Assembly (NCBI GenBank): GCA_033763975.1
Contig: JANRJM010000010.1
Span: 1-64,000 of the forward strand
Origin: Planctomycetota bacterium
GTDB taxonomy: Bacteria; Planctomycetota; Phycisphaerae; Phycisphaerales; UBA1924
Reading direction: 5' to 3'
DNA: 64,000 bases
The notes beneath the pieces are model-generated. The model was not told where the DNA came from and did not search any database. It saw only the letters and a program-made list of their open reading frames with translations. The position numbers and the translations under genes are program-made. This document shows, in pieces, positions 2,269 to 51,605 of this stretch (positions within the stretch are counted from its first letter, which is position 1; each line of letters begins with the position of its first letter).

Positions 2269-3612
2269 CTACCGCCTCGCCACGCGCGCATCAACGTCCG
2301 CCAGCGCGATCGTCTCCTGCGTGCCCGTCGCGAGGTCCTTCAGCGTCGCGCGCTCCGGGCTCTCGATGATCACCGCGTACCGCGCCCGCGCGCCGTTCGC
2401 GTCCTGGATCAGTTTCCCGATGTTCTTCGTCGCCTTGTACGAATGACGCGCGTGCAGCCCCGCCCCGCGCAATCGCGCGACCAGCGGCCTCACCCACTGC
2501 TCCGCCTCCGGGCTCCCGTTGCTCAGCACGAACGCGTCCGGCCTCAGCCCCGCCTTTTCCATCAGCCCCGCGTCGTCGGGCATCAGCCCGCGGTCCGCCA
2601 GCACCAGCCCCAGCACCACGTCGCCCATCCCGAACCCCACCGCCGGCGTGGACGGCCCGCCGAACAGCTCCACCAGCCCGTCGTACCGACCGCCACCCGC
2701 GATCGCCCGCTCCTGCCCCCCCGCCTCGTGCACCTCGAACACCATCCCCGTGTAGTACGCCAGCCCACGCACCACCGTCAGGTCAAAGTCGATCCAGTCC
2801 ACGATCCCCATCTGCGCCAACTGCTGCGCCAGCGGCATCACCGCGTGCGAGAACATCGTGAGGTCCAGCACCTCGTCCGCGCCCGCCGGGTCGTTCACCG
2901 TCACCCGCACCACGCCCCGCTGAAAGACCTCCGCCTGCGCCAGGCTGAACCCGAACTGGGCCAGCCCCTCCGCAAACTCCTTGCCGCTGATCTTCCCCCG
3001 CTTGTCCAGCAGCGCGAACAACTCCCCCTGCCGCTCGACCGCCACGCCCTGCCCCACCAGCCAGTCCGACAACGCCGCCCGGTGGTTCACCCGCACGCGC
3101 ACGTCCCGGGGCGTCAGCCCCAGCCCCGCCAGCAGCGAGACGCACGCCGCGATCACCTCCGCGTCAGCGGCGGCCTTGGCCGCCTCCACCTCCGCCGGCG
3201 TCTTGGGGTCTCCCGCCAGCCCCAGAAAGTCCACGTTCCACTGCAGGAACTCGCGCAGCCGCCCGCGCTGAGGCCGCTCCGCCCGGAAGAAGGGCCCGGC
3301 CATGAACCACTTCGTGGGCTTGGGCAAACTCCCCGCCCGGGCCGCGTACAGGCGCGCCAGCGTCGGCGTGAACTCGGGGCGCAGCGCGTAGGTCTTCTCG
3401 CCCCCCGTCCGCTGGAACGAGAACAACTCGCTGACGATCCCCTCGCCGCTCTTCACCGTGTACAGGTCGAGATGCTCGAACGTCGGCCCGTCGACCTCCT
3501 CGAACCCGTGCCGCACCGACGAACTCCGCCACGAGTCCATGATGAACCGACGCCGGGCGGCGTCCATCGGGTACAAGTCGCGCGTGCCGGTGGGTGCCTG
3601 GTGCTGGCCCAT
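2269..3612 (-). CDS. hisS: Histidyl-tRNA synthetase
   Basis: Class II aminoacyl-tRNA synthetase that charges tRNA-His. Motif 1 region is APTGTRDLYPMDAARR. Motif 2 is GPFFRAERPQRGRLREFLQ. The HisA signature VVRGLAYYTGMVFEVH and motif 3 (GGGRYDGL...AVGFGMGD) follow, then a C-terminal anticodon-binding domain. About 447 residues, usual for the family. The frame stays open to 3633, but that upstream start sits directly against a terminator hairpin with no room for a ribosome site. The ATG at 3612, preceded by TACGGT 9 nt upstream and beginning MGQHQAPTGTRD, is preferred. Monocistronic, convergent with lepB. Confidence 0.95.
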   Translation of the reverse strand: MGQHQAPTGTRDLYPMDAARRRFIMDSWRSSSVRHGFEEVDGPTFEHLDLYTVKSGEGIVSELFSFQRTGGEKTYALRPEFTPTLARLYAARAGSLPKPTKWFMAGPFFRAERPQRGRLREFLQWNVDFLGLAGDPKTPAEVEAAKAAADAEVIAACVSLLAGLGLTPRDVRVRVNHRAALSDWLVGQGVAVERQGELFALLDKRGKISGKEFAEGLAQFGFSLAQAEVFQRGVVRVTVNDPAGADEVLDLTMFSHAVMPLAQQLAQMGIVDWIDFDLTVVRGLAYYTGMVFEVHEAGGQERAIAGGGRYDGLVELFGGPSTPAVGFGMGDVVLGLVLADRGLMPDDAGLMEKAGLRPDAFVLSNGSPEAEQWVRPLVARLRGAGLHARHSYKATKNIGKLIQDANGARARYAVIIESPERATLKDLATGTQETIALADVDARVARR

Positions 3613-11329: not shown

Positions 11330-12883
11330 TCACATCCCCGGCTTCAACTCTTCCATCTCCATCGCCTTCATCACCGCCTCGGGCAGCGCGACCTTGGCCG
11401 GGGGCGTCACGCCGTCGCGTTCCGCCAGCCGCCGCGCCAGGCTCGCGCCCGCGTGCAGCGCCCCCTCCATGTACCCCATGAACGCGAACGAGCAGTGCTC
11501 GCCCGCGAAGTGCAGGTTGCCCAGCCCCTTGTGGAGCGTCGGGCCCATCGCCGTGATCTGCCCGGGCGCATAAGCCGAGTACGCGCCCTGCGTCCACGTG
11601 AAGCCGGGCCAGTCGATGAGCCGCCGGTCCTCGACCTGGTCCTTGAACCCCGGGAACCACGACTCGAACAGCGTGCCCATCATCTCATCGCGTGCCTTGG
11701 CGTCGCGCCCGCGCACCCGCGCCGCCCCGTCCGCCGCGCAGAACGCCGTCAGCCCGCACGGGCCCTCCGCCGCCTGCCCGTCGGTGCTCTCCCACGTCCA
11801 GTTGATGTCCCCGTCGGAGAGCGTGTACTGCGACCGCCCGTCCTTCACCCAGAACCGGCTCTTCACCCGCGTGAGGTACTTCACGTTCACGCCCAACTGC
11901 GGCATCAGCGTCGTCGGCAGGTCCGGCGTCACCTTGATCTTTCCCCACACCGTCGGGGGCGTCGCCAGCACCACGTCGTCGCACTCGATCGTCCGCCCGT
12001 CCGCGCACCGCACCGTGCAGGGCGTGCCGACCTTGATCTCCTTCACCGGCAGGTCCTTCACCACCCGCCCGCCCAGCCCGCCCGCGAGCTTCTCCGCCAA
12101 CTGCTGGTTCCCGCCCTTGCAGCGGTACACCTCGGTCTCTTCCCAGAACCGCTGCAAGCCCCCGCCCCGCACCTGGGTCAGCATCGCCAGCAGCGACATC
12201 CGGTCCGTCCGCACGCCGTTGTCGCCGCCCAGGTTCGCGTCCAGCGCGCCCTTCACCTCCGCCGTCGCCTCGAGCTCATCGATCCACGACTTGAGCGTCC
12301 GCCCGTCGTAGTGCTTCGCGTACTGCGCCGTCCACGGCCGCTCGGGGTCGATCTCCGCGGCGATCGCGTTCATCCCCGTGGCGGCCTCCTCGAACGCCTC
12401 CCACAACGCCGCCCCCTCGTCGCCCCGGATCTCCTTCCCGCCCAGCACGATCGGCGCGTCCAGGTCCGCGTCCTCCGACACGTCCACGAACTCCAGCCCG
12501 AACGCCTTCGCGTACGCCATCCAGTGCGGGTGGTTGCTCCCGATCAGTTCCGCCCCGGCCTCCACCGCCTTGCCCGGCACGAAGTCCTTCAGCGTCAGCA
12601 CCCGCCCGCCCACGCGGTTCTGCGCCTCGATCACCGTCACGTCGTACCCGACGCTCTTGAGCTCGTACGCGCACGCCAGCCCCGAGAACCCCGCCCCGAC
12701 CACCACCACCCGCTTGCCCTTCGCCGCGGGCCGCACGCCCCACCCGCCCGCGCTCAGCAGCAGCCCCGCCCCCGCCGCCAACGACGCTTTCAGCATCGTC
12801 CGGCGCTGCTCGCGCAGCTCCGCCTCGCTCAGCTTCGACAACGGGCCGAACCGCCTGCTCAACACGCGATAGAACCGGGTCAT
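11330..12883 (-). CDS. Tat-exported flavin monoamine oxidase
   Basis: FAD-dependent amine oxidase, oxidatively deaminating a primary or secondary amine; the substrate is unknown. The N-terminus has a twin-arginine signal, QRRTMLKASLAAGAGLLLSA (Arg27-Arg28), so it is probably exported folded with its FAD. The dinucleotide-binding motif VVVVGAGFSGLACAYE lies at about 59-74. NRVGGRVLTL is the family's second glycine-rich motif. The C-terminal FAD motif is GNLHFAGEHCSFAFMGYMEGAL. About 517 residues. The start at 12883 is chosen for GGGAGGATGAC immediately upstream; the 27-codon extension beyond it is not signal-like. Confidence 0.9.
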   Translation of the reverse strand: MTRFYRVLSRRFGPLSKLSEAELREQRRTMLKASLAAGAGLLLSAGGWGVRPAAKGKRVVVVGAGFSGLACAYELKSVGYDVTVIEAQNRVGGRVLTLKDFVPGKAVEAGAELIGSNHPHWMAYAKAFGLEFVDVSEDADLDAPIVLGGKEIRGDEGAALWEAFEEAATGMNAIAAEIDPERPWTAQYAKHYDGRTLKSWIDELEATAEVKGALDANLGGDNGVRTDRMSLLAMLTQVRGGGLQRFWEETEVYRCKGGNQQLAEKLAGGLGGRVVKDLPVKEIKVGTPCTVRCADGRTIECDDVVLATPPTVWGKIKVTPDLPTTLMPQLGVNVKYLTRVKSRFWVKDGRSQYTLSDGDINWTWESTDGQAAEGPCGLTAFCAADGAARVRGRDAKARDEMMGTLFESWFPGFKDQVEDRRLIDWPGFTWTQGAYSAYAPGQITAMGPTLHKGLGNLHFAGEHCSFAFMGYMEGALHAGASLARRLAERDGVTPPAKVALPEAVMKAMEMEELKPGM

Positions 12884-47555: not shown

Positions 47556-47981
47556 CTACTTGCTCTTGCCGAGCTTCTTCTGTACGCGCAGGATGTCGCG
47601 CTCGTACTTGGCCTTGTCGTCCAGCAGGTTGGCCTGCTTGTACGCCGACTCGGCGTCCGCCAGCGCGCCCAGCATCTCGCACGCGACCCCGAGCGCGTGG
47701 TACGCGTTCCGGCGCGAGTTGCCGTCGGTGCGGGCAACCGCCGATTCGAACGACTTGCGCGCGTCGGCGTAGTCTCGCGCCGTCATCTGCCTGATGCCGA
47801 TCGCGAGATCGCCCTCCTCGGAGTACGAGCACAGCGTCGTCGGCACGGTGTCGCCGTCGTGCGGCACCTCGACCGTTGTCTCGACAGCGCACTTGTCCAG
47901 CACATAGCGGTTCGTCGCCGCGCACGACGCGACCAGCGCCGCCACCATCAACGCACTTCCCACACCCGTCCCACGCATCAT
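47556..47981 (-). CDS. Small TPR-containing lipoprotein
   Basis: 141 residues. Signal MMRGTGVGSALMVAALVASC with lipobox VASC. The mature part has a disordered Cys-containing region followed by about two TPR-like helical hairpins (DYADARKSFESAVARTDGNSRRNAYHALGVACEML, GALADAESAYKQANLLDDKAKYER). GGGAGGATGTC precedes the start; an adjacent ATG at 47978 is equally possible. Its stop is 5 nt from the toroid protein stop (convergent). Confidence 0.8.
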   Translation of the reverse strand: MMRGTGVGSALMVAALVASCAATNRYVLDKCAVETTVEVPHDGDTVPTTLCSYSEEGDLAIGIRQMTARDYADARKSFESAVARTDGNSRRNAYHALGVACEMLGALADAESAYKQANLLDDKAKYERDILRVQKKLGKSK

Positions 47982-48029: not shown

Positions 48030-49980
48030 TCATTTCGCCGGGCCGGGGTCAACTCCGACCGCCTCCCGAAGCGTTCGGACCGCCCCGTCCGCCTTGTCCA
48101 GCGCCCGCGCGATCGCGTTCTTCCGCCCGTCCTTCGTCGCTTCACGCAGCTCTTTCTTCAGCACGTCGCGCAACGCCGCCGAGCCCCGCAAGATCTCCGC
48201 CTCGCTGGACGTTCCCTTCGCCAGCCGCTCCAGCACCGGGAGCGACGCGATCCACTCGTCGCACAGCTCGCGCGGCTTGAGCGTGTCGCGGTAGTCGTTC
48301 TTCGCCGCCATCGTGTCGTACAACGCGCGCACCCGCCGCCCGCGCTCCTCGATCTGGCGCATCGCTTCCGCGACCGTCGTCGCGTCGCGCGCGCGCGCGT
48401 CGCCAAAGAGCGATCCCAGGAGTGTTCCGCCCGATACCCCGCCCCCGCCGCTTCCTCCGTCCCCGCCGCCCCCGCCGGTCCGCCCCGTGAGCGCGCCCAG
48501 TACGTCCACCACCGAGATTGTCTGGTTCGGGTTCGCCTGCAAGCGCTGGCGCAGCGCGTCCATCTCCTGCGGCAGGCTCCCGAAGATCGCCCGCGCCGCC
48601 TCCTCGTTCTTCTCCGTCCCCACGCCGTCTCGATAGAACTTCCCGAGCTCGACCTGCCCGGTGCCCTCCTGCTGGTTCGCCGCCTCGGTCGCCCACATCA
48701 ACGCCGCCTGCTCGTCCTGCGTCGTTCCCAGCCCCTTGGACTGCATGATCGCCACCAGCGTCATCGCGCGCGGGTCGCCCGCCGACGCACGCCGCAGGTT
48801 CTCGTCGTACGTCCGCTTCCAGTCCCGCGGCTCGCGCCCGCCCGTCCCCGCGTCGCCCGGTGCCGCCGCCTCGCCCGGCTCGGGCGCTTCCACGGCGTCG
48901 GCGTACACCGCCTGAAACTCCTCGTCGCTCACCGGCTCGGCGCCCCGCGCCCCCCCCCCGGCGCGGGCCGCGTCCCGCCCCGCGCCCCCGCCCGTCGGCG
49001 GCGCCCTCGCCCTCCTGGGCATCGTCCGACGCGAGGCGTGCTTCGGTCTCGCGCGCGGTCACCGGGATCATCACGATCTCGCCCTTGTACTGGCTCAGAT
49101 GGCGCAGCAGCGGGTTGAGTTCGCGCCCCTCCTGCTGCGCGAGCTGGAGCACCTCGTCGCGCACGTCGACGAACACCTCCGTCGCCGACGCCATCGACCT
49201 GTTCTCCGCGTGCTGCCGCAGCACCTTCAGCAGGCCCGCCGTAAACGCCCCGTTTCTCCCGCCCCGTGGCTCGAACGCCAGTTCATCGTGCGTGCCCGCC
49301 GTGATGGCGACGCGGGACTTGTCCTCGGCCAACTTGCGGTACGTGTCGTGCCGGGACTCCTTCTTCTGCCCGCGCGGCAGGGCGGCGAACCCGCTGAAGC
49401 AGCAGTCCATCAGCAGCAGGATGTGCCGCCCCTTCTGTTCTTCCCACTTCTCACCCACCTTCTTCCCGCGCACGCGCTGGGCGAGATCGCCCATGGAATA
49501 CAGCACCGTGCTGTACGCCTCGTGCGACTCCGCCGAGGGCTTGGCCGCCACTCCGCCCGGCGTCAGATACCCCTCGTACGTCCAGGGGTCGCCCGACGCC
49601 TTGCGGAACTGCTTCCGCACGCCGTGCCCGGAGTAGAAGATCACCAGCACGTCGCTCGCCCCGAGCGATTCGAGCGCGCCGGTGATGGCGCCGTCGATCG
49701 CGTCCCGCGTGGCGTTGCTCGCGCCGATCAGGCGGGTCACCTCGAACCCGTACTGCTTCTCCAGGCAGTCGGCCACGTCCGTCGCGTCTGTCTCCGCCAG
49801 CCGGAGGTTCTCGCCGAACCACCCCGCGTCCTTGCACACCTGCGTGTACTCGTTCACGCCGATGCAGATCGCCAGCCGGCGCGCGTACAGCCGAGGTGGG
49901 TCGTCCCCCCGCATCCCCAGGCACGCCAGCACCAGCACGAGCAGCGCCGTCGCCCGCAGCATCGTCCCGCCCCGCCTCAC
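48030..49980 (-). CDS. Exported caspase-family protein with Sel1-like C-terminus, frameshifted at a G10 run
   Basis: Read from GTG 49980, which overlaps the upstream TGA (GTGA). The N-terminus (RATALLVLVLACLG) is a signal or lipobox segment. Residues 32-300 form a peptidase C14 (caspase-like) domain: RRLAICIGVNEYTQ, catalytic His119 in FYSGHGV and catalytic Cys194 in MDCCFSGFAALP. The frame runs into a low-complexity linker at about 49000, where the coding strand has ten G (48950-48959). After the run the Sel1-like C-terminus (DPRAMTLVAIMQSKGLGTTQDEQAALMWATEAA, GTGQVELGKFYRDGVGTEKNEEAARAIF) continues in the other frame to 48030. Nine G would join the two into one protein of about 650 residues; as read, the frame continues as junk to 48142. 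Confidence 0.8.
48950..48959. repeat. Run of ten G (coding strand) at the caspase frame switch
   Basis: Ten consecutive C on the given strand, inside the low-complexity linker of the caspase gene. A change of one base restores the reading frame. This is the longest homopolymer I noticed in the window. It is either a slippage hot spot that switches the C-terminus on and off, or a sequencing error. Confidence 0.85.
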
Positions 49981-50834
49981 AGCGGCACCCCGATCGGCTC
50001 ACGCACGCCGACGGTCTTGCCCACGACGCTCACGCTCGACGAACGCAGACGCTTCACCACGTCGCCGATGCGGTTCGCCCAGTCCTCGACCACCCGCTCC
50101 GCCTGCGAGTCCTTGATCGCGGAGCCCTTCGAAGATCCCTTCGGAAAAACCCAGTCCCACGGCATCGCCGCTCGGTCGTTCCACGCGATCTCCCGGAACT
50201 CCGGGATCGTCACCCCGCTGTTCACCGGCGTAAACGCCTCGCGCAGCCGGTCCGGCGTCACTTCTCCCGGCTTCGCGGTCACGATCAGGAACGTGTGCGC
50301 CCCCGCGCATTGCAGCGTTCCGTCGAACTGCACGCGCTGCCGAGGCGGCGAATCGCCCCGCTCGATGAACGGCGGCTCCCCAGAGCACATGTACACCAGG
50401 AATACGTCCGCCTCGACGTCCCCCTCGTCCTTCGTCACGATCACCCGCCACTCCGTCCCGATGTCGAACTCGCCCGCCGTCCCGCTGCGCTCCTCGAAGC
50501 GGGGGTTCGCGCTCGCGTCGCGCGCCCCGGGGGCGGCGTACACGACCTGCACTCCCGGCGGGTTCAGCGTCGAGACCATCGCCCCGCGCACCCCGCGCAC
50601 CAACGCCGGAACGTCCACCGCGATCCCGATGAACAGCCCGACCGCGCACAGAAGCCCGTAGACCCGCACCCGGCTCGGGAGTCCGCTCTGGCCCCCTGCG
50701 CCGGTCGTCTCGCGCCCGCCGCTCGGAGCGCTCCCGCTCCCGCCCTCGCCGCCCGTCCCATCCGGGACGCCCGACGCGGCCGTGACGCCCCCAGGTACGG
50801 GTGTTCCCCCGTGTTGGCCTTCGGTCTCCGCCAT
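49977..50834 (-). CDS. Single-pass membrane protein in the caspase operon
   Basis: 285 residues. A disordered Gly/Ser/Thr N-terminus of about 55 residues precedes a membrane helix (VYGLLCAVGLFIGIAVDVPAL). A beta-rich extracytoplasmic domain follows (VIVTKDEGDVEADVFLVYMCSGEPPF, THTFLIV-like ...AGAHTFLIVTAKPG) with two Cys about 40 apart that could form a disulfide. It ends with a helical tail (AERVVEDWANRIGDVVKRLRSSSVSVVGKTV). The start at 50834 follows GGAGGTGGGG. Its stop overlaps the caspase GTG by 4 nt, so the two proteins are made together. No known family. Confidence 0.7.
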   Translation of the reverse strand: MAETEGQHGGTPVPGGVTAASGVPDGTGGEGGSGSAPSGGRETTGAGGQSGLPSRVRVYGLLCAVGLFIGIAVDVPALVRGVRGAMVSTLNPPGVQVVYAAPGARDASANPRFEERSGTAGEFDIGTEWRVIVTKDEGDVEADVFLVYMCSGEPPFIERGDSPPRQRVQFDGTLQCAGAHTFLIVTAKPGEVTPDRLREAFTPVNSGVTIPEFREIAWNDRAAMPWDWVFPKGSSKGSAIKDSQAERVVEDWANRIGDVVKRLRSSSVSVVGKTVGVREPIGVPL

Positions 50835-50942
50835 GCCCCACCTCCGCCGGCTCGCCCGACGCGGGACCTGCGCGCCCGCGGGCTGTTCTCGCGCCTTCCT
50901 CCCGGCTCCGTCCGATCCACTACCCCGCGCCGCCATCCTTAC

Positions 50943-51605
50943 TCAGCGCAGATCCACCTCGCCGACGGAAGTCGGCACGTCAAACTCCGCCGCCGTCTGT
51001 CGCTTCACCTCTTCTACGGAAACTCCCGGCGCCAGTTCTCGCAGCGCGAACCGCTTCTTCGCCCGGTCCATCTCCAGCACGCACAGGTCCGTGATCAGCA
51101 GGTCCACGCACCCCCGCCCCGTCAGCGGCAGCGTGCACGCCTTCACCACCTTGCTCTGCCCCTTCGCCGTGTGCTCCATCACCACCACCACCCGGCGCAC
51201 CCCGGCCACCAAATCCATCGCCCCGCCCATCCCCTTCACCATCTTCCCCGGGATCATCCAGTTCGCCAGGTCCCCCTCCTGGCTCACCTGCATCGCCCCC
51301 AGAATGCACAGGTCGATGTGCCCGCCCCGGATCATCCCGAACGAATCGCTCGACGAAAAGAACGACGCACCCGTCCGGGCCGTCACGAGCTGCTTCCCCG
51401 CGTTGATCAGGTCCGGGTCGATCTCCCGCTCACGCGGGAACGGCCCGATCCCCAACAGCCCGTTCTCCGATTGCAGCCACACGTCCATCCCCGGCGGCAC
51501 ATAGTTCGCCACCAGCGTCGGAATCCCGATGCCGAGGTTCACGATGTACCCGTCACGCAGTTCGCGCGACGCACGCAGGGCCAGTTGCTCTCGGGTCAGG
51601 GGCAT
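50943..51605 (-). CDS. 3-oxoacid CoA-transferase, subunit B
   Basis: Beta subunit of the acetoacetate/succinyl-CoA transferase type, which moves CoA between carboxylic acids. 220 residues. The catalytic glutamate motif is [12 protein letters not shown]. Other segments match the family: [72 protein letters not shown]. The alpha subunit, normally adjacent, is not found in the window on either side, so this is an orphan copy whose partner is encoded elsewhere. TAGAAT lies exactly 6 nt before the ATG (leaderless-type). Confidence 0.92.

Follow-up and report, generated by a model that had tools for sequence, protein, structure and literature searches.

Among 671 prokaryotic metacaspase sequences surveyed, Sel1 is reported in 6.0% (40), and 46 single-domain metacaspases are reported with one N-terminal helix, possibly a signal peptide (PMC3501461). 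One Sel1-metacaspase architecture is reported elsewhere (PMC4933709), and sigma-factor and TPR neighbours are known for other caspases, according to the portion of PMC8195603 used here. In our literature searches no work joining caspase, Sel1 repeat and Planctomycetes was found, nor was any report of a cassette made up of a membrane partner, a caspase-Sel1 protein and a TPR lipoprotein.

The locus described here belongs to a Planctomycetota bacterium (Phycisphaerae; Phycisphaerales; UBA1924) and lies in the window, by which we mean the whole stretch of 64,000 nucleotides that was analysed (positions 1 to 64,000 of contig JANRJM010000010.1, assembly GCA_033763975.1). Our main reading, to which we give a probability of about 0.7, is that a caspase-Sel1 gene sits in a three-gene envelope cassette, and that its frame is broken by a homopolymer error or an undirected slip, not by a selected switch. 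The features of the locus, in the order of transcription, are as follows.

50943 to 51605, minus strand: CoA-transferase, the conserved upstream neighbour, outside the cassette (Pfam CoA_trans, E 3.1e-52)
49977 to 50834, minus strand: membrane partner (open reading frame, hydropathy, tail similarity)
48960 to 49980, minus strand: probably exported caspase part, frame 1 (Pfam, catalytic dyad, hydrophobic N-terminus)
48950 to 48959, minus strand: run of ten G (G10 tract), where the frame most likely changes (sequence and slippage-weighted codon usage)
48030 to 48949, minus strand: Sel1 repeat and helical tail, second frame (Pfam Sel1, similarity to the G006 gene)
47556 to 47981, minus strand: putative TPR lipoprotein, third gene of the cassette (TPR matches below cut-off, G006 counterpart, lipobox by eye)

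The caspase frame is open throughout from a GTG at 49980 to a stop at 48142 in the ORF list of the window. Within it Pfam places Peptidase_C14 at about 49135-49881, with E 4.1e-19 and 69.6 bits against a cut-off of 21.4, and the catalytic dyad, which the first-pass annotation had given as intact, is indeed present as His119 in SGHG and Cys194 in DCCFSG, counted from the GTG; if the alternative start, an ATG at 49962, is used, the residue numbers are lower by 6. With the domain above its cut-off and both catalytic residues in place, the caspase part is a metacaspase-like member of Peptidase_C14. Among solved caspase-like proteins its sequence matches GSU0716 (E 6.8e-9) and metacaspase-4 (E 0.002). 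A fold model of the homologue in the congener G006, whose caspase part is 38% identical to that of the window, has a mean pLDDT of 65.9 and matches metacaspase 9 (E 4.6e-9) and MALT1 (E 1.0e-8) among solved structures, and a caspase fold is predicted on this model of the homologue.

The C-terminal part in another frame, described earlier as Sel1-like, is borne out as well. The second frame is open as far as its stop at 48030 and carries a Sel1 repeat at about 48672-48773 (Pfam, E 1.2e-8, 35.6 bits against a cut-off of 30.7), and it aligns at 40% identity over 263 columns with the C-terminal part of the G006 gene, which is a single open frame. Since caspase and Sel1 lie together in that one frame, the second frame of the window belongs to the caspase gene. 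In G006 the order of CoA-transferase, partner, caspase-Sel1 and TPR lipoprotein is that of the window; the similarity between the two genomes is 85% for the CoA-transferase, 27% over 81 residues for the partner, 38-40% for the parts of the caspase-Sel1 protein and 40% identity for the lipoprotein, compared with the gene at the corresponding place. G145, of another genus in the same family, encodes a partner of 421 aa, a caspase-Sel1 protein of up to 710 aa and a TPR lipoprotein, in the same order and on the same strand. The Sel1 extension is thus present in both homologues, although its scores in G006 (19.1 bits) and G145 (27.9 bits) are both below the Pfam cut-off of 30.7. Comparison among relatives supports the view that caspase and Sel1 were originally one gene, and reading nine G in place of ten gives 649 codons, in agreement with the protein of about 650 residues foreseen for that reading.

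It had also been claimed that the Sel1 frame starts precisely at the run of ten G, and here the change of frame stands while the exact site does not. When codon usage is modelled from 98 long ORFs, taken from 243 kb of sample sequence (GC3 0.93), the preferred place for the switch is about 49006-48976, which is upstream of the tract, and the range allowed is about 49012-48946. Under this model the share of the G10 tract as switch site is 0.9% if all bases slip equally, and becomes 0.50, 0.92 and 0.995 when slippage rises 2-, 3- and 5-fold per extra base. Because codon usage alone does not fix the switch at the tract, we infer it as the most likely site from the way in which homopolymers behave. 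As to the tract itself, the window has 4 G 8-mers against a mean of 17.6 in dinucleotide shuffles, that is, fewer than shuffled sequence, and when the 150-nt linker is shuffled by mononucleotides a G10 turns up 6% of the time; the tract is therefore mildly unusual locally and no more. A length discrepancy of one base, most likely in the G10 of the Gly/Arg-rich linker, would then interrupt the frame in the assembly, and its likeliest cause would be either a homopolymer error in the assembly or an indel from undirected slippage.

In bacteria, contingency loci of the homopolymer kind have a long G tract inside the coding region, and the first-pass annotation had taken the tract for a phase-variable gate of this kind. 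Slippage in the G10 would toggle the product between full-length caspase-Sel1 and a caspase whose tail is scrambled and rich in Gly/Arg. The tract does fall within coding sequence, where two domains meet, and alters the frame; the protein looks exported, and neither state lacks any of the catalytic part. However, the tract is missing from the intact caspase-Sel1 genes of G006, G145 and G053, where the longest runs of G are 6, 5 and 5, respectively, and the first frame stays open for about 850 bases beyond the switch without an early stop. Of the marks of a contingency locus, therefore, the window has the frame-changing coding tract, while a tract kept in homologues and an early stop in the off state are both absent.

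The same two frames could also be served by programmed slippage of RNA polymerase or ribosome on the G10, which would yield two protein forms from one DNA sequence. A long homopolymer at the join and two frames open across the region are what this account would call for; however, the relatives encode the full protein without any tract, and the open alternative frame is no more than the GC content of 70.5% leads one to expect, so that we give the account hardly any credence.

What happens at other long G tracts of the window's genome also bears on the gate. Away from contig ends there are 10 distinct tracts of at least 9 G, and two of these break a gene, namely the one in the window and a G9 tract in L047 (2603-3605; G000:C18:305951). 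The gene split in L047, which we take from its motifs to be an exchanger-like transporter, is continuous in G002, G004 and G006 (3/6 other genus genomes giving a match). Three G9 tracts are in frame inside genes, two of them by HMM (L040, L041) and the third, L042, by reading of the bases where the HMM call is non-coding; such tracts are therefore not misread every time. Among the in-frame G9 tracts are those at C2:125861 and C2:213622. Four more lie in stretches called non-coding (L044, L045, L046, L048). At L043, about 2990-3080 (G000:C9:62095), a C12 tract comes right after an ATG preceded by AAGGAGG, and a Cys-rich frame lies beyond it.

No frame break was seen at any of the 30 G8 tracts examined, out of 42 exact G8 tracts, where 19 of the 30 lie inside a coding call and 11 in non-coding calls, in which breaks cannot show; six apparent frame switches near G8 tracts (L137, L142, L145, L150, L155, L163) turned out by their translation stops to be ordinary gene ends. 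A stricter HMM, run over the window and 20 stretches, gave two direct same-strand switches, the caspase and L059, and the latter, at 12136, is away from any long G tract. Contigs C4 and C16 end in arrays of G or C runs, and contig C19 starts in a C run (L049 and L050 for these contig ends); these poly-G/C arrays at contig ends look like an assembly artefact.

Breaks at G tracts were seen only where the run is at least 9 G long, and the caspase is not special among them; errors of sequencing or assembly would give this pattern, and undirected slippage in cells would give it equally well. The phase switch is set aside as the lead because the relatives have continuous, tract-free genes and because an exchanger-like gene is split in the same manner; the arrays at contig ends also tell against it, and we consider a phase-variable gate decidedly unlikely.

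Upstream of the caspase lies the membrane partner, with a short N-terminal part, one hydrophobic segment and a domain with a C-terminal tail; it has two start candidates, an in-frame ATG upstream at 50936 and the one at 50834. By hydropathy the single pass ascribed to it holds, the window's partner having a single hydrophobic 19-mer above 1.5; partner-type proteins have one such segment in G053 also and two in G145, and the strongest segment of the G006 partner is weaker, at 1.45. Its stop was said to overlap the caspase start, and this is so if the GTG at 49980 is the start, the TGA and GTG then forming GTGA, whereas with the ATG at 49962 the overlap is lost. The tail of the partner is similar between G006 and the window (E 2e-7) and, in one comparison, between G006 and G145 (E 1e-4), while that between G145 and the window is below significance. 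A Pfam scan of the partner found no family, and its fold model has a mean pLDDT of 36. The proposed search for this protein beside caspases in other genomes finds a partner adjoining caspase-Sel1 in G006 and G145.

The unit had been described as a two-gene operon. The pairing of partner and caspase is kept, but the unit is larger and, by gene order, is a three-gene cassette of membrane partner, probably exported caspase-Sel1 and TPR lipoprotein, because the TPR lipoprotein gene (47556-47981 in the window) is directly downstream in the window, G006 and G145. The TPR matches of the lipoprotein are below the Pfam cut-offs, the best being TPR_16 with E 6.1e-6, and a lipobox-like motif is visible by eye in the window (LVASC), G006 and G145.

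Regarding the distribution of the cassette, the CoA-transferase gene is found in all seven genomes of the genus, and the cassette follows it in two, G000 (the window's genome) and G006. In the other five, searches for the caspase, the Sel1 part, the lipoprotein and the partner gave no match, either genome-wide or beside the CoA-transferase, where the sequence inspected was about 2 kb in G003 and G005, 3 kb in G002 and 7 kb in G001 and G004; the completeness of two of these cassette-less congeners is 76% (G001) and 71% (G003). At the family level the whole cassette was found in 3 of 163 genomes. The lipoprotein profile matches these three alone (G000, G006 and G145), the partner profile 2/163, own genome included (G000 and G006), missing the partner of G145, and the caspase-Sel1 query 4/163 (G000, G006, G145 and G121). 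The match in G121 is limited to query residues 84-236, and the start of its 583-aa ORF does not look export-like by eye. Beyond the family, with at most three candidates scored per genome and the own genome included, matches at E 1e-8 were obtained in 26/392 genomes of the phylum sample, 11/397 of the class sample and 6/400 of the order sample, and mostly span the caspase part.

A related operon in G053 consists of a sigma-70-like gene, a single-pass membrane protein and a caspase that carries six stretches of Sel1, and is adjoined by genes that we take to be relaxase-like, coupling-protein-like and S26-peptidase-like. G053 and G750, which come from different parts of the class, have 12,001 bases in common at 100% identity (L103 1-12001, L104 560-12560); this identical stretch may be an element that moved recently, or one of the two assemblies may be contaminated. 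Plasmids were also searched with the caspase of G053; the 10 matches listed of 267 records have their start no earlier than query residue 408, beyond the caspase domain. Homology between the partner and the G053 membrane protein was considered for their tails, which are alike by eye, but is not claimed, the profile comparison giving a probability of 0.2% (E 0.38) and BLAST an E above 0.2. One metagenome-assembled genome of the Desulfobulbaceae (L009 4345-5900) has an export-type caspase that lacks Sel1 and whose start is overlapped by the gene of a membrane protein; that membrane protein gave a best E of 0.7 against the partner, that is, no similarity, and the pairing is apparently analogous to that of the window and unrelated to it.

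The claim of an export-type N-terminus for the caspase is confirmed as far as hydropathy goes, hydrophobic N-termini of this type being found in 4/4 caspase-Sel1 loci (window, G006, G145 and G053). By hydropathy and reading by eye the caspase is probably exported to the cell envelope. The protease would then act outside the cytoplasm, with the partner and the lipoprotein keeping it close to the membrane. Substrates or regulators might reach it by docking on the Sel1 and TPR repeats, and the outcome would be regulated proteolysis in the envelope. A fuller version, in which the partner tail and the TPR lipoprotein control the exported caspase-Sel1 protein, the set is inherited as a cassette and the docking part is varied by the G tract in this lineage, seems to us very improbable.

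A different role, compatible with our account of the frame break, is that of a defence or death module, in which an invader or stress would trigger the caspase to cut envelope proteins and so kill or arrest the cell. Among the cassette genes the PADLOC generic caspase model is matched with E 3.9e-15, caspases are found in proposed bacterial conflict systems (PMC8195603, in the portion used here), the distribution of the cassette is patchy, and the related operon of G053 and G750 lies beside conjugation-like genes. However, that generic model is the only one matched in the PADLOC scan of the cassette genes, which recovers no known anti-phage system, the partner, the Sel1 part and the lipoprotein matching none; the caspase reaches 72.3 on an EACC1-type model whose cut-off is 140, the protease is apparently exported, and the gene next upstream has a metabolic function. 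Taken together, we regard such a role as unlikely.

If our main reading is true, a co-inherited exported-caspase cassette points to regulated proteolysis of caspase type outside the bacterial cytoplasm, and the cassette is small enough for testing. The frame break, for its part, calls for care with GC-rich assemblies, in which a long G tract can mimic a switch when an unrelated gene of the same genome breaks in the same way.

Compared with known systems, the window gene is like the orthocaspases of PMC3501461 in its C14 domain and His-Cys dyad, and Sel1 or an N-terminal helix is known among them; unlike the orthocaspases described in the portion of that source used here, it shares a cassette with the genes of a membrane partner and a TPR lipoprotein. 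The caspase systems associated with EACC1 and EACC2 (NF047832; PMC8195603, as far as consulted) also have a caspase with neighbours, but the window caspase reaches only 72.3 bits on NCBIfam NF047832, below the cut-off of 140, and looks exported. Arabidopsis metacaspase 9 and the paracaspase MALT1 have a fold like that of the G006 model, yet are eukaryotic, 15-16% identical and without a Sel1 part. With homopolymer contingency loci the window shares a coding G tract, but the tract is not conserved and the other frame has no early stop. Caspase with Sel1 is thus already known, and this particular cassette is rated as a new variant.
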